36,519 nucleotides of DNA, from assembly GCA_020073545.1 (NCBI GenBank), contig JAIQEZ010000038.1:1-36519 (forward strand). Reading direction: 5' to 3'. Both the position numbers and the translations under genes were made by a program. Below are positions 1 through 19,770 of the stretch, in pieces; the first letter of the stretch is position 1; every line of letters starts with the position of its first letter. The notes beneath the pieces are model-generated. The model did not search any database. It was not told the DNA's origin and worked only from the letters and a program-made list of their open reading frames with translations. The stretch comes from Terriglobia bacterium. Its GTDB lineage: Bacteria; Acidobacteriota; Terriglobia; UBA7540.

Positions 1-38
1 TTACTCACCTGCCCGGGGAAAAGAAGAGAAAAGCCAAA

Positions 39-59
39 CCTCTACCCGCCGTGTAGGGG
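39..59 (-). terminator. Candidate rho-independent terminator after the lipoprotein gene
   Basis: Read on the minus strand, CCCCTAC and GTAGAGG form a 7-bp stem with one mismatch around a 7-nt loop. A pyrimidine-rich stretch containing TTT and TTTT follows. It lies a few bases past the stop of the minus-strand lipoprotein gene, where a terminator is expected. The stem is short, so the call is moderate. Confidence 0.5.
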
Positions 60-1949: not shown

Positions 1950-3128
1950 TCATTTCTGCTCGACCTTGCGGCGGCGGATGAAGGCCGGAACCTCCAGGTC
2001 GTCCTCCTGGATCCCCGCGTTCAGGGTGGCGGGTTGCGCCTCGACCGGCAGCTTCTCTTTCCTCGCCAGGACGGTCTTTACGCTCTGTTGGGCGGTGCGC
2101 AACGCGGGAGAAAATGCGGGGAGCGGCTTCACACCCATTTTCTCGGATTTGATGCCGGTGGCAATCACCGTCACCTTGACGGCATCTCCCATCGACTCGT
2201 CATGGACGGCGCCGAAAATAATGTTGGCGTTGTCCGCGGCGGCCTTTTGCACGATGGTCGAAGCCTCGTGCACCTCATAGAGCGTCAGCTTGCTCGAGCC
2301 GGTAATGTTGAGCAAGATGCCCTGGGCTCCGTTGATGCTCGCATCTTCGAGCAAAGGGCTGGCGATGGCGCGGTTGGTGGCTTCCACGGCGCGGTTCTCT
2401 CCTCTGGCCACCGCCGTGCCCATCACTGCATAGCCCATGCCTTCCATGATGGTTTTGATGTCCGCAAAATCGCGATTGATGATCCCCGTAATGGTAATGA
2501 TATCGGAGATTCCCTGCACCCCCTGCCGCAGGATGTCGTCCGCGATGCGGAATGCCTCGAAGAAGCTCGTCCCCTTGTCGACGTACTGCATGAGACGTTC
2601 GTTGGGAATGCAGATGAGCGTATCCACGGCCTGGCTCAATTCTGCCAGGCCCTGCTCCGCCTGCACCATGCGGCGCTTGCCTTCGAAGGCGAAGGGCTTG
2701 GTGACCACGGCCACCGTCAGTGCGCCGAGTTCGCGCGCCAGGCTGGCCACGATGGGTGCGCCACCCGTCCCCGTCCCGCCGCCCAGGCCCGCGGTGACAA
2801 AGGTCATGTCAGCGCCTTCCAGTGCTTCGATGATCTTTTCGGTGTCCTCGAGCGCCGCACGCCGCCCAATTTCCGGGTTGCCCCCCGAACCCAATCCCTT
2901 GGTCAGCTTGGTGCCGAGTTGAATCTTCAGCGACGCTTTGGAAGCCTGCAACGCCTGCGCGTCGGTGTTGGCCACGAGAAAATCCACGCCTTTCACATCG
3001 GCCGAGATCATCCGGTTGACGGCGTTGCCTCCACCCCCACCAACCCCGATGACTTTGATCTTGGCGCCGTGGCGCAGCTCGTCGGAGAAATCCACCCGGA
3101 GGTCGCCCATGCCAGTTCCGCTCGCCAT
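1950..3128 (-). CDS. ftsZ: Cell division protein FtsZ
   Basis: Bacterial tubulin homologue of about 392 residues; it polymerises with GTP into the cytoplasmic Z-ring. The N-terminal GTPase domain shows the glycine-rich [11 protein letters not shown] loop and the tubulin signature [10 protein letters not shown]. The [15 protein letters not shown] segment is characteristic of the GTPase/C-terminal domain junction. A short variable linker leads to the C-terminal peptide [12 protein letters not shown], the docking site for FtsA and other partners. Start: ATG at 3128, preceded by AAAGGAG with about 5 nt spacing. An open frame continues upstream but overlaps ftsA and lacks this site. It is the last gene of the dcw cluster, 23 nt after ftsA, and a hairpin lies just beyond its stop. 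Length is normal for the family. Confidence 0.98.
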
Positions 3129-3151
3129 TATGGCTCCTTTGCTCCCAGTCT

Positions 3152-4381
3152 TTAGGTCCCCTTGCCGCGCAGGCTTTCCCAGAGCTTCCCGAACCATCCC
3201 ACGGAGGCTCGCGAGTCGCGCAGCAGGCGCCGGCGGTTCCCGTGGACCGCTAAGCCCACGGCGGTCGCGAATGCCGGGTCGGGAAGGGTTTCACCCATGC
3301 GCTCGAGCCCGAACGGGACGCCAGCCCGCACGGGCATGCCCAGAGTTTGTTCTGCAAGCCCTGCCAGACCGCCTAACTTCGCTCCGCCCCCCGTCAGCAC
3401 GACACCCGCACCCAACTGCTTCTCGCACCCCGAGCGGCCAAGTTCCGCTCGGATCAATTCCATCAGTTCCGCGGCGCGAGGCTCGATGACCTCACTCAGC
3501 ATGGCGTAACTTACCACGCGGGAGGGCCGGTCCCCCACGCTGGGGACTTCCAACAGCGTGCCGGCGGGCTTGGCAAGGTCGCGCTCGCCCCAGGCTTTTT
3601 TCATCTTTTCCGCCTCGGGAATCGGTGTGCGCAGTCCCACCGCGATATCGTTGGTGAAGTGCTCGCCTCCCACAGGAATTACGGCAGTGTGTCGCGCCAC
3701 CCCCGCATGATAGACGATCAGGTCGGTCGAGCCACCCCCGATGTCCACTAGCGCCACACCCAGCTCGCGCTCGTCGGCCGTCAGGCAAGCCTCCCCCGAG
3801 GCGAGCGGTTCAAAAACCGTGTCTTGCACCACCACCCCTGCCCGGTTCACCGCCGTCACCACGTTCTGGGACGCGGAGGCCGACGCCGTCACGAGGTGGA
3901 CATCCACTTCCAGCCGAGCCCCCACCATGCCGACGGGGTCCCGGATGCCGTCATGGGAATCGAGCAGGAACTTTTGCGGCAGGACATGCAGAAGCTGGCG
4001 ATCCTCCGGCAAGGTGATACCCTGGGCCGTCCGAATAACCCGCCGAACGTCCTCGCGTTCAACCTCCCGCGTCGCGGCGGGAGTCTTCCCCAGCGTGATC
4101 GCACCCCGGGAATTCACTCCCTTGATATGCGCGCCTGCCACGCCGACGTAAGCGGAATCGATGGACACTCCCGCGGCGGCCTCGGCTGCCTCCACGGCTT
4201 TCTTCACCGCCAGCCCTGTCAGGTCGAGATTTACAATCAAGCCTTTGCGCCAGCCCTTCGATTCGGCCACGCCCAGGCCCGCGACTTCCAGCTTCCCTTC
4301 CTCGTTCGGCTTGCACACGAGCGCGCAGGTCTTCACACTGCCCAGGTCAAGCCCCACGATGGTGTGACCTTTGCGCGCCAA
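3152..4381 (-). CDS. ftsA: Cell division protein FtsA
   Basis: Actin-fold ATPase, about 409 residues, that tethers FtsZ filaments to the membrane and recruits later divisome proteins. Visible motifs: phosphate-1 [13 protein letters not shown] near the N-terminus, phosphate-2 [14 protein letters not shown], and the adenosine motif [13 protein letters not shown]. The SHS2-like 1C subdomain lies between the first two. The C-terminus ends with a Trp/Leu/Lys-rich amphipathic stretch ([11 protein letters not shown]), the usual membrane-targeting helix. The start appears to be TTG at 4381, 7 nt after the ftsQ stop; no ATG lies near the conserved N-terminus. AAAGGA sits inside the end of ftsQ, so translation may be coupled. 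ftsQ-ftsA-ftsZ is the classical order. Confidence 0.96.
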
Positions 4382-4388
4382 GTTTTCT

Positions 4389-5309
4389 TCAGTCCTTTCG
4401 CTCGCCGTTGGCGGGCACCGCTGGCTCCGCCGCCGGAACGGGTGGCTGCGGGTTCACCACAATCTGATTGCGATACCGCAAATCAACGGAATCAAGTCTG
4501 GGGTTCGATTTCCGCAACTCCGGGAGCAACGACAGGAAACTCCGGAACCGTGCAAGAAAATCCTGGTGGCCGAAGTGCACCTGCACCGTGTGTTGTCCCA
4601 AAATGAGCAGCGCCTTCAGGTCCTCAGGGTCGGTCAGGTCCACTTCCGAAATCATCCAGCCGGGGCGAGGTGCCTCCGCTTCCAGTTGCTGCATGAACTC
4701 CTGGTAGAGGGCCAAACGACTGCGGCGCTCCTCCACGCTGGCAACATTTTCCAGGCCACTGATCACGGGGAAGTCGAAGACTCCGTTCTCCGGTTTCTCG
4801 AGCAGCATGCCGTCACCGTCTACCAGGCTCACCCGCCCGCCGAGGGTGGCAAAGGCCACGGGTGTGCGCTCGGTGATGTGGACCAGCAGTCCGTGAGGCA
4901 GTAGGCGCGTCACCGCCGCCGTCCTTACCCAAGGCAGAGTTTCCACCATTAGCCGCTTGGTATCCAGGGAAATGCGGAAGACATTGGTACCCGCTTTCAC
5001 ATTCCCCGTCAAAGGCAATCCCAGCGCACCCAGGACTTCCTCGCGCGAGACGACCCGGTTTCCTGTGATCACAATGTCTTCCTGCGAACTCAACACGAAG
5101 CACGGCGAGGCAAGTGCGAAGGCGGCGAGGAAGTAGCCTGCGACACCGACGGGGAATAGGATGCCAAGCGCCAATAGAACCCAGCGAAGGCGTCGCGACG
5201 TCCGGCTGCGTCGCACCGAGACGAGGCTCTGCCGCCGCAGATAAGGGGATTCCTGCTCGGATTCCAACTCATCTGGCAGCGCTGGTGCGTCCTGTTGCAG
5301 CAATTCCAT
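4389..5309 (-). CDS. ftsQ: Cell division protein FtsQ/DivIB
   Basis: Bitopic inner-membrane protein of about 306 residues in the FtsQLB complex that gates septal peptidoglycan synthesis. A basic cytoplasmic tail with an acidic, Gln-rich first 25 residues precedes one transmembrane helix at about 43-68. A POTRA domain follows, with the typical ITGNRVVSREEVLGALGL start, then the FtsQ beta domain with WVRTAAVTRLLPHGLLVHI and a late DLRYRNQIVV strand. Start: ATG at 5309 with GAGGGAGC close upstream. It ends 7 nt before ftsA. The proline-rich tail is unremarkable. In many bacteria murB and/or ddl sit between murC and ftsQ; here only about 116 nt separate them. Confidence 0.92.
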   Translation of the reverse strand: MELLQQDAPALPDELESEQESPYLRRQSLVSVRRSRTSRRLRWVLLALGILFPVGVAGYFLAAFALASPCFVLSSQEDIVITGNRVVSREEVLGALGLPLTGNVKAGTNVFRISLDTKRLMVETLPWVRTAAVTRLLPHGLLVHITERTPVAFATLGGRVSLVDGDGMLLEKPENGVFDFPVISGLENVASVEERRSRLALYQEFMQQLEAEAPRPGWMISEVDLTDPEDLKALLILGQHTVQVHFGHQDFLARFRSFLSLLPELRKSNPRLDSVDLRYRNQIVVNPQPPVPAAEPAVPANGERKD

Positions 5310-5315
5310 GCTCCC

Positions 5316-5408
5316 TCAAGAGGTCCAGTAGGCCCGCGCCCGCGTGACCTTGTCTTCCACCCTGGCTTGCGCGAGGTGGCCTGGCAGCTCTTCCTCTGCT
5401 ACCAACAT
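5316..5408 (-). CDS. Possible 30-residue leader peptide before ftsQ
   Basis: A small ATG-started frame fills most of the murC-ftsQ spacer. Its TGA stop directly abuts the GGGAGC ribosome binding site of ftsQ, so translation could be coupled. The peptide is Glu/Arg/Ala-rich and I recognise no family. Its own start has no good Shine-Dalgarno sequence, and open frames this short occur by chance in GC-rich DNA. It could equally be non-coding. Confidence 0.2.
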   Translation of the reverse strand: MLVAEEELPGHLAQARVEDKVTRARAYWTS

Positions 5409-5425
5409 CCGAATCGGTGCCAGCC

Positions 5426-6835
5426 TCAGTGCGGAACCACTCCCGACCGGGCAGCCCGGCGGCCAATCGCCTCCGCCAGCGCCTCGCCGATCTTCCACAC
5501 GTTTCCCGCTCCGATGGTCATGACCAGGTCGCCCGGCCGCGCGGCGTGCAGGAGTTCTTGTACCACCTGCTGGTCTGACGGCGCGTATCGCGCGTTGCTT
5601 AGGCCCAATTCGTGCATACGCGCTACCAAGCGTTCGGAAGTCACACCCGGGATCGGCGGCTCACTGGCCGCATAGATATCCAGCACGTAAACGCGGTCGC
5701 AACCCGTGAAGCAACTTGCCAGGTCATCCAGCAAGAACTTGGTGCGCGTGTAGCGATGCGGCTGAAAGATGGCGATGACGCGTTTCGCCCCCTGCAGGCG
5801 CGCGGCGTCGAGCGTGGCGCCGATTTCCGTGGGATGGTGACCGTAGTCATCCACAATGGTGATGCCCTCAAGCTTCGCTTTGATCTGAAAGCGGCGGTCG
5901 GCGCCGTGAAAATGTTCCAGGCCCTGGCGAATCTGCTCGGGGGCGAGTTCCAGTTCCAAGCCCACCGCCACCGCCGCAAGAGCGTTTTGCACGTTGTGCC
6001 GGCCAGGGACATGGACCGAAAAGCGCCCCAGCTCCTTCCCTTTCACGACCGCGTCAAACGTCGAGCCGGACGGCGCGAGCTCGTGGATCTTGCCCTGGAT
6101 GTCCGCGCCTGGCTCGAGACCGTAAGTGACCACGCGACGGCGAAGCTGCGGCGCCAGGGTTTGCATCAGCGCGCGCCAGGGTGGGTCGAAACACGCCACC
6201 ACGGCACCGTAGAAGGGAACCTTGTTCATGAAAGAGACAAAAGCCGCGGCGATCTCGTCGAGGTCGTGGTAGTGGTCCAGGTGCTCGCGGTCAATGTTGG
6301 TGACCACGGCAATCGAAGGCAGCAGGTGGAGGAACGAGCGGTCACTCTCATCCGCCTCGACCACCATCAAATCACCTTTCCCCAGCCGGGCGCTTGACCC
6401 AAAAACATCCAGTCGCCCGCCGATCACCGCCGTGGGGTCGAGCTTCGCCTCCGCCAACATCACGGCGATCATGGAAGTGACCGTGGTCTTGCCGTGCGCG
6501 CCCGCCACCGCCACGTTAAACTTCAGGCGCATCAATTCCGCCAACATCTCAGCACGCGGTATGACGGGGACTTGCCGCCTCTTGGCTTCGCGGATTTCAG
6601 GATTGTCCCCCGGCACGGCGGAAGACACCACCACCACCTGTGCCTCACTCGCGTTCGAGGCCGCGTGGCCTTCGAAAACGCGCGCCCCTAGGCTTGCCAA
6701 GCGCGCGGTGACGGGGGTCGCTTTCAAGTCGGAGCCCGAAACCTGAAATCCCAGATTGAGCAACACCTCGGCAATGCCGCTCATGCCGATGCCGCCGATC
6801 CCCACAAAATGAATCTTCCGAATCTTTCCCAGCAT
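5426..6835 (-). CDS. murC: UDP-N-acetylmuramate--L-alanine ligase MurC
   Basis: Cytoplasmic ATP-dependent Mur ligase of about 469 residues that adds L-Ala to UDP-MurNAc, the first amino acid of the stem peptide. The N-terminal Rossmann motif [17 protein letters not shown] binds the UDP part. The central ATPase domain has the P-loop [11 protein letters not shown] and the [10 protein letters not shown] and [10 protein letters not shown] motifs typical of MurC. The C-terminal domain has [11 protein letters not shown] and FQPHRYTRT. Start: ATG at 6835; a TTG two codons upstream is possible. Spacing from murG is 70 nt and is filled by a heptad-repeat hairpin whose outer arm ends 13 nt before this start, so ribosome access may depend on that structure. 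Confidence 0.97.
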
Positions 6836-6848
6836 CTTCAAGCTTCTC

Positions 6849-6907
6849 AGCTGTCAGCGTTCAGCGCTCAGCCAAAGCATTAAGCTGATTGCTGAACGCT
6901 GATCGCT
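6849..6907. repeat. Heptad inverted repeat (TCAGCNN) at murG/murC junction
   Basis: The left arm 6849-6872 and right arm 6884-6907 are 24 nt each and are complementary at all but about four positions. Each arm is made of 7-bp units of the form TCAGC plus two variable bases. The 11-nt loop is CAAAGCATTAA. The murG TAG stop (6906-6908) overlaps the outer end of the right arm, and the murC start lies 13 nt past the left arm. The same architecture, with a related loop, is found at 13999-14071. Confidence 0.88.
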
Positions 6908-8111
6908 ATTTCCTCGCCAAGGCTTCGACCAAGTCTGCGATGCGTGCTGCCGCATCCGGTCGCGCCAAGCGGCGGGCGCACGCTTCCATCTGACCGAGCG
7001 TTTCGGGGACCCCTAGTAACCCGCGGATTTCCCTCACCAGCCGCTCCGGCGTCAGTTCCGACTGCACGAGGACGCGCGCCGCTCCCGCACGCTCCAGAAC
7101 CCGGGCGTTTTCCAGTTGGTGCTGATCCGTAGCGGCCGGAAAAGGAATCAGCAACGCGGCCCTTCCGGCGGCAGCCAATTCGGCCACGGCCGTCGCGCCC
7201 GCGCGCGAAACCACCAAGTCGGCCTGCGCCAGCACCCCAGGCATGTCCTCGAGAAAGGCGTGAACCTCGGCGAGGAAGCCTCGCTCCTGATAGGCCTTGC
7301 GAACTTCATTATAGTCGGGTTCGCCGGTTTGGTGGACGATTCTGATCCGCCCCGCCTCGCGCGCAAAGATCGGCAGACTCGCCACCACCGCTTGGTTGAT
7401 CGCCCTCGAACCCTGGCTCCCCCCCACGATCATGACCGTGAAGGGCGGCATGTGCGGCTTGGGCGGAATCTCGAAAAACGCCCTGCGCACAGGATGCCCC
7501 GTCAGATGAGCCTTGCCACCATAGAAGCGCGCCGTTTCCTCAAACCCCACCGCCGCCGCGCGCACCACCGGCGCCAGAACGCGGTTCGTGAAACCCGGCC
7601 GGGCGTTCGGTTCAATCAGCACCGTGGGAATGTCCCGGAGCGCCGCTTCCAGCATCACCGGTCCCGCCACGTAGCCCCCCACGCCCACCACCACGTGGGG
7701 CTGAAACTCTCGCAGAATTGCTGCTGCCTTTACCGCCGTGTAGGGTAAGACCAGGAAATTGCGCAGCCTTCGCACACCCCCAATTCCCTTCAAGCCGGCC
7801 GCCTCGACTACGCGTAGCGGAAAACCCGCCGCGGGAATCAGTTTCGATTCGAGCTGGCGACGCGTCCCTACGAATTCGATCGCGTAACGCGTCGAATTCC
7901 AGCCGCCGCGCTCGCTGCGCGTGCGCAACTCCTCGGCCACCGCGAGGGCCGGAAAAATATGGCCACCTGTTCCCCCGGCCACCATCAGGATGCGCGCCGT
8001 TCGCGGGGCCGGTTCTGCAGGTCCGGATTTGTCGCCGCTAACCGCATCCGCGGCCGCGTCAGGATCTCCGCGCCCCGCCTCTTCGATCCGCTCGTGCACG
8101 GTGTTCAACAC
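6906..8111 (-). CDS. murG: Lipid II synthase MurG (GlcNAc transferase)
   Basis: GT28 glycosyltransferase of about 401 residues. It transfers GlcNAc from UDP-GlcNAc to lipid I on the inner face of the membrane, giving lipid II. The N-domain has the glycine-rich loop GGTGGHIFPALAVAEEL and VVGVGGYVAGPVMLEA. The C-domain has MIVGGSQGSRAIN, the nucleotide-sugar motif VVSRAGATAVAELAA, and PFPAATDQHQLENA. The start is GTG at 8111, with GAGG only 4 nt upstream; the next codon, TTG at 8108, is better spaced. Either way the protein has an N-terminal extension of about 40 Ala/Asp/Glu-rich residues before the usual start of the fold. It begins a few bases after the ftsW stop. Its TAG stop lies inside a heptad-repeat arm. 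Confidence 0.96.
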   Translation of the reverse strand: MLNTVHERIEEAGRGDPDAAADAVSGDKSGPAEPAPRTARILMVAGGTGGHIFPALAVAEELRTRSERGGWNSTRYAIEFVGTRRQLESKLIPAAGFPLRVVEAAGLKGIGGVRRLRNFLVLPYTAVKAAAILREFQPHVVVGVGGYVAGPVMLEAALRDIPTVLIEPNARPGFTNRVLAPVVRAAAVGFEETARFYGGKAHLTGHPVRRAFFEIPPKPHMPPFTVMIVGGSQGSRAINQAVVASLPIFAREAGRIRIVHQTGEPDYNEVRKAYQERGFLAEVHAFLEDMPGVLAQADLVVSRAGATAVAELAAAGRAALLIPFPAATDQHQLENARVLERAGAARVLVQSELTPERLVREIRGLLGVPETLGQMEACARRLARPDAAARIADLVEALARK

Positions 8112-8116
8112 TTCCT

Positions 8117-9208
8117 CTAGCTCGCGTGTTGTGAAATATTCAGCAATATCCCCACGGCCGCCAGGCTAACCAGCAAGGATGATCCGCCATAGCTTACGAA
8201 CGGCAGGGGAATACCCTTCGTGGGGAGCAATCCCAGCACGACGCTCATGTTCACCAGCGCCTGGCCCACGATCATCACTGTCAGCCCAATAGCCAACAGG
8301 CGCCCGAAGTCGTCCGCGCAGCCGGTGCTGGCGCGCAGTCCCCGCAGCAGGATCAGGGCGAAGACGGCCGCAATCGCCAGTGCGCCAATCAAGCCCAGTT
8401 CCTCTCCCACGACTGCGAAAATGAAATCTGTCTGAGGTTCCGGCAAGAAAAAGAGCTTCTGCCTGCCTTCCATCAGCCCCACACCGGTAATGCCACCGGT
8501 TCCGATCGCGATGTAGGACTGCAGAATCTGGAAACCTTTCCCCAGCGGGTCGGCGTAAGGATTCCAAAACGCCAGCAGACGGTTGTGGCGATAGGCCGAC
8601 TGGGAAATCAGCCCGTACAGCAGGGGCACCGCGGAGAGTCCTGCCAGCGCAAAAGAGCGGAGCGGCAAGCCCGCCGCAAAAAGCATCGTCGCCACTACCA
8701 AGCCGAGCGCCAGGGCCGTCCCGAAGTCGGGCTCCGCCAGCACCAACCACCCCGTCACGCCGGCAACCAACGCGATCGGCAACAGGGTATGCTTCCAGTC
8801 GTTCACCTGCCCCTTGCGAAGATCCAGGAAAAAGGCCAGGAAAAGGGGGAGGACGATTTTCGCGAGCTCCGAAGGCTGAAAGCTGACGGCTCCCAGGTGA
8901 AACCAGCGATGCGTGTGGTGATTGCGGTCGGCGAAGAGCACCAGCACGAGTAGAATAAACTGCCCAGCCAGAGCGGGAAAAACCACCAGCGGGCTCGCCA
9001 GCCGCCGGTAGTCCACATGCATCATGACCACCAGGGCGATAAACCCCACCACCGCCCAAGCCAGTTGTCGCCAGAGAAAATAATAACTGTTATCGTGTTT
9101 TTCCGACGCCAATACCGCCGAGGCGCTAAAGATCATCAGTGCGCCGAAAAGAACCAGGCCCACCACGGCGCCAAACAGGACCTTGTCCGATTGGAGTTGT
9201 CTCGCCAT
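8117..9208 (-). CDS. ftsW: Septal peptidoglycan polymerase FtsW (SEDS family)
   Basis: Polytopic membrane glycosyltransferase of about 363 residues, with roughly ten transmembrane helices. SEDS proteins polymerise lipid II with a partner class B PBP, here the FtsI at 15662-17764. SEDS landmarks include RWFHLGAVSFQPSELAKI, the EPDFGTALAL segment whose acidic residue is required in the family, and the C-terminal GIPLPFVSYGGSSLLVSL signature. Start: ATG at 9208, 7 nt after the murD stop; the ribosome binding site is weak, suggesting coupling. FtsW rather than RodA is favoured by its place between murD and murG. Confidence 0.95.
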   Translation of the reverse strand: MARQLQSDKVLFGAVVGLVLFGALMIFSASAVLASEKHDNSYYFLWRQLAWAVVGFIALVVMMHVDYRRLASPLVVFPALAGQFILLVLVLFADRNHHTHRWFHLGAVSFQPSELAKIVLPLFLAFFLDLRKGQVNDWKHTLLPIALVAGVTGWLVLAEPDFGTALALGLVVATMLFAAGLPLRSFALAGLSAVPLLYGLISQSAYRHNRLLAFWNPYADPLGKGFQILQSYIAIGTGGITGVGLMEGRQKLFFLPEPQTDFIFAVVGEELGLIGALAIAAVFALILLRGLRASTGCADDFGRLLAIGLTVMIVGQALVNMSVVLGLLPTKGIPLPFVSYGGSSLLVSLAAVGILLNISQHAS

Positions 9209-9215
9209 GCGCTAG

Positions 9216-11015
9216 CTAATCCAGTCCGGGTAGTCGCGCCTGCGCTTCCGCTGACGAGCGCGGCGCGTCCCGGTCGTCAGCGGTCTTGCTACGCCCCTTC
9301 CCTTTCGCGGCGTCTTTCTTGGCGGCGGGGCTCGCCACACCCGCGGTCTCCCCGCGCGCCTCAAAAGGCAGCGGTTCGTCGGCGAGGGCCTCCGTTTCGC
9401 TCGCGCACGGGGAGACCGCAGGTTCTTCCTCTGGTGAGATCTGCGCTTCCATCTCCGTCGGAGGCGTTTCTACCGCGTCAACTTCGTATACATAGCTCAG
9501 TTCCCGGTGACCCGGGGGTGGTTCGACGACCCTCGAGGGAGATTCTGAAGGCTTTTCGGTTTCCACCGGCTCCACTGGCTCAACTACCCCCGCGGGGGTC
9601 GAGGGCGGTTCCGGCGCAGCCGCGTCTGAAAGCTTCTGCCGGGCGATTGCACCCGCCGAGACATCTCTCGCGAGTCGTTTTACCAGCTCCTTGAACACGC
9701 GGCCGCGCTGTTCATAATCTTTGAACTGATCGAAGCTCGAACAGGCGGGCGCCAGCAGCACCGTGTCACCAGGACGCGACCGGATAAAGGCCGCACGCAC
9801 GGCGGTCGCCAGATCGCCCGCGTGAACGAGTTCCCCGGAGCCCGCGAGTTGCTTCGAAATCACCGGGGCGGCGGCTCCGATCAGCAGGACTTCGCGCACC
9901 CGCTCCTTGATCAGCGGGATGAGCGGCGTGTAAGGCGCGCCCTTGTCTTTCCCGCCCAGAATCAAGTGGACGCCGCGCTCGAAGGCTCCCAGCGACTTCA
10001 CGGTGGCGTCGACGCTGGTGGCCTTGGAGTTGTTGTAGAAATCCACGCCCTGGACTTCCCGCACGAATTCCAGCCGATGCTCAACGGCCCGAAATTCCCG
10101 CAAGGCCTTCCGAAGCGCAGCAAAATCCGCGCCCAGCACACACGCCGCGGCGGTGGCCGCCAGCACGTTCTCCAAATTGAAATCGCCGCGCAAGGGCACG
10201 TCGCGGGTTTCGAACAGCACGCGCTCCAGGTGCCGCGCGCGATAGTAGATCTTGCCTCCGGAAACGAAGACACCGTTCGCGAGTTCACGCTGGCGGCTGA
10301 AAAGTACCGACCGGCTGGAGACTGCCGCAGGGAGCGCGGCCACCCAGGGATCGTCGGCATTCAGGATGGCAAAATCCCGGCCACGCTGATTGCGGAAGAT
10401 CTGCCGCTTGGCCTCCGCATAAGCTTCCAGATTGGGGTGCCGGTCGAGATGGTTCGGCGAAAGATTGAGCATCACCGCCACGTGCGGGTGGAGTTCCTGA
10501 ATGCCTTCCAGTTGAAAGCTGCTCAACTCCGTGACGAACATCGTGCCGGGCGGGGCGTGGTCAACCGCGGAGCTCAGGGCGTTCCCGATATTGCCGCCCA
10601 CGAACGTGGGGAACCGGGAAGCCCGCAGCATATCGCCGAGCAGCGCGGTCGTGGTGGTCTTGCCGTTCGACCCCGTGATGCCCACCAGCGTGCCTTCCAG
10701 AAACCAGGTCGCGGCCTCAACTTCGGGATAGATCGGAATCTGCTGCTGGCGCGCGGCTTGAAGCTGCGGTAGGTCCCAAGGCACACCCGGGCTGATGACA
10801 ATGACGTCTTGGCCAAGGAACGTCTCCTGGCGTTGCGAGCCGAGCTCCAACCCGATCTTCCCCTTGAGGAGCGGCGGCAGGAGATCCCGGAACTCTGAAG
10901 GGGGCTTGAGATCGGTCACGGTCACAACCGCGCCATGGCGGGCCAAAACCAGAGCCACCGAGAAACCGCTGCGAGCGAGTCCCACGACCAGCACGCGTTT
11001 GTCGCGCACATCCAT
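9216..11015 (-). CDS. murD: UDP-MurNAc-L-Ala--D-Glu ligase MurD with long C-terminal tail
   Basis: Cytoplasmic Mur ligase that adds D-Glu to UDP-MurNAc-L-Ala. The N-terminal Rossmann region [17 protein letters not shown], the P-loop ITGSNGKTTTTAL, LNLSPNHLDRH, FYNNSKATSVDATV and LLAPACSSFDQFKDYEQRG are all present within the first 450 residues. The protein then continues for about 150 residues (599 in total, against about 450 for the family) with a Pro/Glu/Ala-rich, low-complexity tail that contains a compact segment HRELSYVYEVDAVE and ends in basic patches. The tail is predicted by eye to be disordered. Start: ATG at 11015, overlapping the TGA of the ribbon-helix-helix gene as TGATG, with GGAGG 8 nt upstream, so the two are translationally coupled. 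Confidence 0.95.
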   Translation of the reverse strand: MDVRDKRVLVVGLARSGFSVALVLARHGAVVTVTDLKPPSEFRDLLPPLLKGKIGLELGSQRQETFLGQDVIVISPGVPWDLPQLQAARQQQIPIYPEVEAATWFLEGTLVGITGSNGKTTTTALLGDMLRASRFPTFVGGNIGNALSSAVDHAPPGTMFVTELSSFQLEGIQELHPHVAVMLNLSPNHLDRHPNLEAYAEAKRQIFRNQRGRDFAILNADDPWVAALPAAVSSRSVLFSRQRELANGVFVSGGKIYYRARHLERVLFETRDVPLRGDFNLENVLAATAAACVLGADFAALRKALREFRAVEHRLEFVREVQGVDFYNNSKATSVDATVKSLGAFERGVHLILGGKDKGAPYTPLIPLIKERVREVLLIGAAAPVISKQLAGSGELVHAGDLATAVRAAFIRSRPGDTVLLAPACSSFDQFKDYEQRGRVFKELVKRLARDVSAGAIARQKLSDAAAPEPPSTPAGVVEPVEPVETEKPSESPSRVVEPPPGHRELSYVYEVDAVETPPTEMEAQISPEEEPAVSPCASETEALADEPLPFEARGETAGVASPAAKKDAAKGKGRSKTADDRDAPRSSAEAQARLPGLD

Positions 11016-11197
11016 CAAGCAAGCCTCCGCCGTCTGGGTTGACCGTTCTTGCGGAAATGCACGTCCAGGATTTCCGAGACAACTTCCGAAAGCGACCGCC
11101 GGACCTGCCGCGCCGCGCGGCGAGCCTCGACCAGCGTTTCCCGATTGAGGGTCAGGCTCACGCGCGTGGGATTACGGAATGATTTCGGTCTCCCCAT
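11015..11197 (-). CDS. Small ribbon-helix-helix DNA-binding protein inside dcw cluster
   Basis: Sixty residues. The pattern TRVSLTLNRETLVEARRAA followed by RRSLSEVVSEILDVHF is that of a ribbon-helix-helix fold: one beta strand that would enter the DNA major groove, then two helices. Basic ends (MGRPKSFRN and QPRRRRLA) fit DNA binding. Such proteins bind operators as dimers, as in the MetJ/Arc and CopG-type antitoxin families. No toxin gene is adjacent; the next gene is murD, whose start overlaps this stop. A near-consensus promoter lies directly upstream and would give a very short leader without a Shine-Dalgarno sequence. I infer a local transcription regulator, perhaps autoregulatory, but the target is unknown. 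Confidence 0.75.
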   Translation of the reverse strand: MGRPKSFRNPTRVSLTLNRETLVEARRAARQVRRSLSEVVSEILDVHFRKNGQPRRRRLA

Positions 11198-11212
11198 AAT
11201 TGGTTAGTGCGT

Positions 11213-11241
11213 ATTTTATGCGCGAAAAGTCAGTTCGTCAA
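11213..11241 (-). promoter_or_regulatory. Internal sigma-70 promoter before RHH-murD
   Basis: The minus strand reads TTGACG (11236-11241), a 17-nt spacer, then TAAAAT (11213-11218). This is close to the consensus with ideal spacing. Initiation about 7 nt downstream would leave a leader of roughly 8-11 nt before the ATG at 11197. It would let murD, ftsW, murG, murC and ftsQAZ be transcribed separately from the mraZ-mraY half. Confidence 0.7.
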
Positions 11242-11255
11242 ATAAAGTCGGCGGG

Positions 11256-11392
11256 CAGTTGTCAGTTCTCAGTCATCAGTTTTCAGTAATCCCTTCTCCG
11301 CTTCTGCCGCGATGCCGGGAAAATCCGTCAAAGTCGCAAGACGCTCTGCCGTAAGTTCTCACTGATAACTGAGAACTGATGACTAACAACTG
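11256..11392. repeat. Long heptad inverted repeat (TCAGTNN) between mraY and RHH-murD
   Basis: The 32-nt arms at 11256-11287 and 11361-11392 are highly complementary and are built of 7-bp TCAGTNN units. They enclose 73 nt of non-repeat sequence with no gene. The element starts 14 nt upstream of the internal promoter and ends 20 nt after the mraY stop. It could act as a transcriptional insulator or processing site, or be a MITE-like mobile repeat. Confidence 0.85.
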
Positions 11393-11412
11393 ACTCCGGA
11401 CTCCTACCTCCC

Positions 11413-12543
11413 TCAGCGCAGTTTCAGCGTGGTCAAGGCAAAGAGCGCGAAGACCAATGCGGCGATCCAAAAGCGCGCAATGATTTTCGATTCCTTCCAG
11501 CCGCCCAATTCAAAATGATGATGCAGTGGCGCCATGCGAAAAATGCGCTTGCCACGCAGCTGGAATGAGCCCACTTGCAGAATCACGGAAAGGGCCTCGA
11601 TCACAAAAATCCCGCCGATAAAGGGCAGCAGCAGTTCCTGCTTGATGATTACCGCTACAGCAGCCATCGCGCCCCCCAGCGAGAGCGAGCCCACATCGCC
11701 CATGAAGATCTCCGCGGGATAGGCGTTGTACCAGAGGAAACCGAGACTCGCACCCACCATCGAGCCGCAAAAGATGGTCAGTTCGCCTACGCGCGGCAGA
11801 TGTTCCAGATCGAGATACTCGGAAAGCACCGCGTGCCCGCCGACGTAGGTCAGCACGGTCAAAGCGGAAGCTGAGATCACCAGGCACCCGATCGCCAGGC
11901 CGTCCAGCCCATCGGTCAGGTTGACGGCGTTGGATGACCCCACCAAGACCAGAACAACAAAAAGCAGGAAGGGGAGAAACGCCAAGGGATACGTCCAGAC
12001 GTTCCCCAGGAAGTGCGAGATCAAGAACGTGGGGCGGAAGCGCTTGAAGAAAGGAAATATCAGGGTGGTGGAGTAAAGCCCTCGCGCCGACAAGAAAACC
12101 AGAATGACGCCGAAGACGAAACTGACCAGGATCTGCAGCAGGAACTTCCCCCGCGCGGTCAGGCCCAGGTTCTGGCGGCGCCGGACTTTCTGGTAATCGT
12201 CCCAGAAACCGATGGCGGCAAAGGCCAGGGTCGTCCCCAGCGTGAGCCAAACGAAGACGTTGCTGAGGTCCGACCAAAGCACCGTAGGAACAACGATACA
12301 GAGAATGATGAGCACGCCGCCCATGGTGGGCGTGCCCGCCTTGGTTTGGTGAGCTTGCGGCCCGTCTTCGCGGATGTACTGACCAACCTGGAATTCCTTG
12401 AGCTTCCGCACCAGCCACGGCCCCAGGACGAGCGAAAGGAGCAGAGCCGTCAGACTGGCGTAAGCCGTGCGAAAGGTGATATACCGAAATAGATTGAAGA
12501 TGTGAAATTCGAAATGGAGTTTGAGGTAGAGGTAATAGAACAT
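11413..12543 (-). CDS. mraY: Phospho-MurNAc-pentapeptide translocase MraY
   Basis: Integral membrane enzyme of about 376 residues with roughly ten transmembrane helices. It moves phospho-MurNAc-pentapeptide from UDP to undecaprenyl phosphate, giving lipid I. Family motifs: [19 protein letters not shown] with the paired aspartates, [25 protein letters not shown], and the histidine motif [17 protein letters not shown]. Start: ATG at 12543, 10 nt after the murF stop, with no clear Shine-Dalgarno sequence, so coupling to murF is likely. About 215 nt separate it from the next gene; that gap holds a heptad inverted repeat and a new promoter. Confidence 0.97.
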
Positions 12544-19329: not shown

Positions 19330-19770
19330 TCAGATACCCAAATTGCTCAGCGCCTGCTCGTCTTCGCCGGTGAGTGGCTCGCGCTCCAGGTGCTCGCGAT
19401 AGCGCTCCATGTTCCAGACTTCCAGGTAGTTCAGGTAGCCGAGCACGGCCACTTCCCCATGCATGCCGGCCGACTCTCGCAACAGCGCCGGTATCAACAC
19501 GCGACCCTGTGTGTCGGCGCGCGCTGTCTGACCCCAGTAGTTCGTCCGGTCCAGGAAGCGTTTCTTGGCCTTATTCATGCTAGGCAAGACAGCTAGCTTA
19601 TCTTCGATCTCACGCCAGACCGGAAATGGGTAGATGCGCGCCGACTGACCATCAAGGCTAGTTACAAAGAAGTCCTGCCCGTAGTTCTCGTCCAGGTCGG
19701 CCTTGAAGGCGGTCGGAATCTTCAACCGACCTTTGCCATCCACCGTCGCCGGGTAGTTCCCGCGTAGCAT
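19330..19770 (-). CDS. mraZ: Transcriptional regulator MraZ
   Basis: 146 residues with two SpoVT-AbrB-type DNA-binding motifs, DGKGRLKIP near residue 11 and DTQGRVLIP near residue 85, the hallmark of MraZ. MraZ forms ring-shaped oligomers, is associated with the nucleoid, and represses its own dcw promoter by binding short repeats with GTG/TGG cores spaced by 10 bp. Such repeats lie just upstream (19820-19854). Start: ATG at 19770 with GAGG about 9 nt before. It is the first gene of the cluster, and rsmH follows immediately, the usual order. Confidence 0.97.
   Translation of the reverse strand: MLRGNYPATVDGKGRLKIPTAFKADLDENYGQDFFVTSLDGQSARIYPFPVWREIEDKLAVLPSMNKAKKRFLDRTNYWGQTARADTQGRVLIPALLRESAGMHGEVAVLGYLNYLEVWNMERYREHLEREPLTGEDEQALSNLGI

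Follow-up and report, generated by a model that had tools for sequence, protein, structure and literature searches.

A small ribbon-helix-helix gene inside the dcw cluster of an acidobacterial family and its putative operator

Introduction

The dcw cluster is among the most conserved gene clusters of bacteria, and, to our knowledge, dedicated regulators encoded inside it have been little described other than MraZ. Among the very small ribbon-helix-helix (RHH) proteins, CopG controls the copy number of a plasmid, pMV158. MraZ, in E. coli, represses its own gene and other dcw genes (PMC8475190). In haloarchaea, CdrS is an RHH protein of 55 aa thought to be co-transcribed with ftsZ2, and CdrL binds exclusively upstream of cdrS-ftsZ2 (PMC7439475); the title of another paper names CdrS of Haloferax volcanii a global regulator (PMC8406309). 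A literature search, which left most subscription papers outside its reach, found no paper joining the dcw cluster with a ribbon-helix-helix protein.

The window analyzed here is a stretch of 36,519 nucleotides from a Terriglobia bacterium (contig JAIQEZ010000038.1), which carries a small RHH gene, called rhh in the following, inside its dcw cluster. A sequence-only reading of the window had proposed that this gene might encode a regulator acting locally, either on murD to ftsZ or on its own promoter. The proposal is supported by conserved synteny, by an invariant palindrome at the promoter, by a count of one exact site per genome, and by the joint loss of gene and site. The reading preferred here, with a probability of about 0.8, is that rhh would encode a dedicated autorepressor with a single target and CopG-like logic, which would determine the output of an internal promoter serving rhh-murD-ftsW-murG-murC-ftsQ-ftsA-ftsZ.

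Locus and gene order

The features of the locus are collected in Table 1, in which the names of ftsW, murG, murC, ftsQ, ftsA and ftsZ derive from translations and gene order. The 60-residue reading frame between mraY and murD was confirmed, as was its reported overlap with murD, which begins inside the rhh stop codon. The genes downstream of rhh, of which those beyond murD span 1950-9208, all share one strand; no gap between them exceeds about 116 nt, and terminator-like sites show no excess among them. From this gene order, we infer co-transcription from rhh through ftsZ.

Two other traits of the region were observed. Between mraY and the rhh promoter lies a long imperfect inverted repeat of the ACTGAGAACTGA type (11246-11402), with arms of 31-42 nt that are 72-80 nt apart, and short stretches resembling it occur at six further places in the genome. 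MurD has a C-terminal extension (9216-9700) of about 150 aa past the ligase domains, which is rich in P, E and A.

Table 1. Features of the locus, in window positions (nt) or in residues of the rhh protein
Feature	Position	Strand	Remarks
ftsZ	1950-3197	minus	part of the proposed transcript
ftsA	3152-4381	minus	part of the proposed transcript
ftsQ	4389-5309	minus	part of the proposed transcript
murC	5426-6841	minus	part of the proposed transcript
murG	6906-8111	minus	part of the proposed transcript
ftsW	8117-9208	minus	part of the proposed transcript
murD	9216-11015	minus	start overlaps rhh stop as TGATG; extra C-terminal tail
rhh	11015-11197	minus	60-aa ORF with ATG start; RHH protein
5' leader	11198-11206	minus	very short; putative start at invariant AA after second box
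Proposed RHH operator	11208-11224	minus	here CGCGCATAAAATACGCA; family consensus TGCGCA-TAAAA-TGCGCA
-10 element TAAAAT	11213-11218	minus	identical in 22/22
-35 element TTGACG	11236-11241	minus	TTGAC in 22/22 relatives, spacer 17-18
mraY	11413-12543	minus	upstream of rhh, same strand
mraZ	19330-19770	minus	usual dcw regulator, head of same cluster; Pfam MraZ E 7.3e-20
rhh basic N-terminal arm			MGRPKSFRNP
rhh expected strand	residues ~11-17		TRVSLTL; by alignment to CopG
rhh helix A	residues ~19-32		low-confidence monomer model
rhh helix B	residues ~36-50		low-confidence monomer model

Promoter and putative operator

Of the promoter-like sites in the region, TTGACG-17-TAAAAT (11241-11213) is the best. 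As a pattern alone it is weak, with two such sites in the region versus 0.7 in shuffles, a difference that is not significant; its conservation in 22 of 22 relatives makes the observation much stronger by comparison, and the near-consensus promoter of the sequence-only reading thereby stands. All 22 copies share the consensus TTGAC, 17-18 nt, then TGCGCATAAAATGCGCA.

A conserved inverted repeat overlaps this promoter in every carrier. In the consensus it is made up of two TGCGCA boxes, each a palindrome in itself, placed on either side of the -10 at a distance of 11 bp. The spacer is followed in all carriers by GCG(C/T)ATAAAAT(G/A)CGC, usually with T before and A after it. The spacer and the flanks vary in sequence, and the six positions of the GCG and CGC arms are identical in 22/22; since the arms are not needed for a promoter and are nevertheless invariant, they argue for an operator. 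Two positions of the 15-mer do vary, with T replacing C in the first box and A replacing G in the second; they mirror each other, and in one genome, G026, which carries both substitutions, the symmetry is preserved.

The exact core 15-mer, GCGCATAAAATRCGC, was found at 20 sites in 61 genomes, every one of them at an rhh promoter, and its reversed control gave no site in the same genomes. The two remaining carriers differ from it, G026 having GCGTATAAAATACGC and G036 having GCGTATAAAATGCGC. The window contains a single copy of the operator. Neither the palindrome that surrounds the -10 nor its uniqueness in the genome was part of the sequence-only reading, which had pointed to the promoter and to its leader. 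Of the latter it had said that there is almost none: this holds for the window, where the leader would be about 8 nt long given a transcription start at the invariant AA that follows the -10, but not for all relatives. The start codon lies 7-11 nt past the 15-mer in 16 of the 22 genomes and 65-121 nt past it in the other six, so a short leader is not a fixed feature. These six relatives (L013, L016, L017, L019, L021 and L025) fall in two clades, and their long leader looks unconserved. No Shine-Dalgarno sequence was seen in the leader of the window.

The RHH protein

Assignment of the protein to the RHH (MetJ/Arc/CopG) superfamily, already made in the sequence-only reading, is supported by profile searches. 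Pfam DUF6364 matches all 22 members (best E 5.6e-7) and RHH_1 matches seven of them, weakly (best E 0.0011), while the protein of the window taken alone reaches 21.8 bits with DUF6364, below the Pfam cut-off of 27.3 bits. Among solved structures, the best RHH match of the 22-member profile is CopG, a weak one (E 0.02) that covers the RHH core only; a homeobox match of the same profile (E 0.011) spans just 22 residues and was not taken as meaningful. Pfam scans of rhh gave no match to MraZ (PF02381), and an NCBIfam search returned nothing. The AlphaFold monomer model is poor (pLDDT 64.6), with both helices as expected and the strand modeled as helix; loss of the strand is itself expected, as it forms only in the dimer, and the model leaves the fold unproven.

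Alignment of the 22 members revealed 19 invariant residues, which include those of the arm (M-x-RPKS-x-R-x-P) and R12, L15, T16 and L17, with S14 nearly invariant. RHH proteins contact DNA through every second residue of the strand, and the conservation of R12, S14 and T16 is a point in favor of the proposed RHH regulator. That the protein binds DNA is further suggested by the invariant palindrome, which occurs only together with the gene.

Distribution, gain and loss

Acidobacterial dcw clusters were searched for the gene at this position, a check proposed along with the sequence-only reading. Across 61 genomes, rhh was present in 22 of the 37 from the family, which belongs to the soil Acidobacteria, and in none of the 24 from outside it. 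When 347 genomes from across the phylum were searched, the gene of the window itself was the single close match, and outside the family the matches were weak and limited to the RHH core; tblastn found no match in phage and plasmid collections either, and an origin from these two sources was rejected on this ground. In all 22 carriers rhh and murD are neighbors on one strand; mraY lies upstream in every case where the contig extends that far (that of L012 ends before mraY), at a variable spacing of 51 to 319 nt from rhh. The overlap or near-overlap with murD is kept in most relatives; L019 departs from this in that MurD can be aligned only from 134 nt past the rhh stop onward, but there, too, an ATG overlaps the stop codon. 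With a median pairwise pN of 0.15 versus a pS of 0.65, the gene is under purifying selection.

The family genomes without rhh were examined through mraY. Fifteen non-carriers were covered in this way, two incomplete genomes without a match (G061 and G062) having been left out, and an assembly gap was rejected as the cause of absence, as a single contig holds both mraY and murD in 15/15. The exact 15-mer is missing from all 15, and none has an intact operator. When placed on a MraY-MurD tree, with the losses grouped on the assumption of no regain, this distribution is best read as a gain of rhh on the family stem followed by at least five losses, the operator being gone each time. One loss accounts for seven genomes of the genus of the window, and one each for G028, G035 and G017; one or more further losses lie among G009, G022, G018, G031 and G023, whose order is poorly supported on the tree. 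The remnants show gene and promoter decaying together: in G017 a 48-nt deletion removes helix A and the -10 is changed to TAATCT, and in G035 the promoter-operator is gone and the reading frame has diverged. Both decaying remnants (L043 and L044), the one with the internal deletion and the one without promoter, still end at the murD start.

Absence from close relatives, with no residues conserved, had been named beforehand as a point against a regulatory role. The gene is indeed absent from the seven genomes of the same genus; however, the operator is absent there too, and the 19 residues are invariant across the rest of the family. The 15 genomes without rhh indicate that the gene is not essential. 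In these genomes murD is presumably transcribed by read-through from mraY, which would make the internal promoter an addition rather than a necessity.

Alternative explanations

The weak profile matches found in family genomes and across the phylum are mostly RHH proteins of 75-100 aa encoded directly upstream of toxins, and such toxin-antitoxin pairs often overlap by 4 nt, much like rhh and murD. Twenty-six of these loci were fetched, and 25 gave an RHH ORF in a re-scan. A toxin neighbor (PIN or PemK) scored above the curated Pfam cut-off in 13, L111 has a PIN_3 match below the cut-off, and several further loci, outside the Pfam scan, look alike. With mostly antitoxins as its nearest RHH proteins elsewhere, rhh might be the orphaned half of a type II system, persisting without its toxin, with its old self-repressing promoter and with no benefit for dcw expression. 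Such a useless relic would be expected to decay, as it has in G017 and G035, whereas rhh keeps the same place and promoter across the whole family under strong purifying selection; it is about 60 aa long, without the longer tail of the antitoxin relatives, and no toxin gene adjoins it in any of the 22 loci, as had been noted for the window, murD following directly or nearly so. The orphan origin without function is for these reasons considered quite unlikely.

A role as a wider regulator, acting mainly elsewhere and merely autoregulated at the dcw site, would agree with the regulons of some RHH regulators, with the title given to CdrS of H. volcanii (PMC8406309), and with looser sites (two mismatches) that occur in every genome. 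Yet carriers and genomes without rhh have similar numbers of these looser sites, near the control, and with counts so close to background a wider regulon was rejected; within carriers the exact site occurs at no other place, and rhh itself is always in dcw, which leaves this role a little less credible again. Activation of the promoter instead of its repression would also explain the joint loss of gene and site, but it is very unlikely and the least probable of all, as the boxes flank the -10, where the polymerase must open the DNA, and both the -35 and the -10 are already near consensus.

Proposed regulation of murD to ftsZ

Under the preferred reading, that of an autorepressor with a single target, rhh would be the first product of a transcript initiated at the internal dcw promoter and extending through murD, ftsW, murG, murC, ftsQ, ftsA and ftsZ. 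Two RHH dimers might then bind cooperatively, one per TGCGCA box, separated by one turn of the helix with the -10 between them, and would keep RNA polymerase off the promoter. The output of murD to ftsZ would be held near a set point and recover as growth dilutes the repressor. Repression is favored by the position of the boxes on both sides of the -10, in a promoter that is near consensus as it stands; this mode of action, like DNA binding itself, the two dimers and the read-through to ftsZ, is a prediction. With 60 residues there is no room for a ligand-sensing domain, which makes homeostasis or simple feedback likelier than a response to a signal. Thus, rhh probably acts as a thermostat for the expression of murD to ftsZ, which make up the second half of the cluster.

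As to origin, recruitment of rhh from an antitoxin, with murD in the place of the toxin, is plausible; since RHH antitoxins are abundant, the likeness is one at the superfamily level and leaves descent unproven. A fuller scenario, in which an antitoxin-type RHH repressor was domesticated in the family ancestor, its toxin replaced by the essential murD, and one-site feedback came to set the dose of murD to ftsZ beside the older MraZ control, is tentative and has somewhat less than even chances.

In this case the proposed regulator and its operator are both defined, one target is predicted, and some relatives have naturally lost gene and site alike, so that the importance of dose feedback on murD to ftsZ becomes directly testable.

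Comparison with known systems

With CopG and similar RHH autorepressors, rhh shares the very small single-domain RHH protein, the position as first gene of the transcript thought to be controlled, and a palindromic site at its own promoter. It differs from CopG in being chromosomal, vertically inherited and coupled to murD, and the sequence match is weak and limited to the RHH core. The RHH antitoxins of PIN and PemK/MazF systems have in common with it the RHH domain and a leading RHH gene that overlaps the next one; unlike them, rhh has neither a toxin nor a C-terminal toxin-binding tail, and its next gene is murD.

MraZ is encoded in the cluster under its control, and rhh likewise lies in dcw, control being predicted. 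However, MraZ belongs to another family (PF02381 in Pfam), its gene heads the cluster, and it is widespread; here it is present alongside rhh. The CdrS/CdrL system is archaeal and concerns a single division gene, not half of a dcw cluster, the likeness being again at the level of the RHH superfamily; the parallel suggests that tiny RHH proteins may have been recruited repeatedly to control division genes. By analogy, MraZ and the archaeal CdrS/CdrL-ftsZ2 system appear to be the closest functional parallels of rhh.
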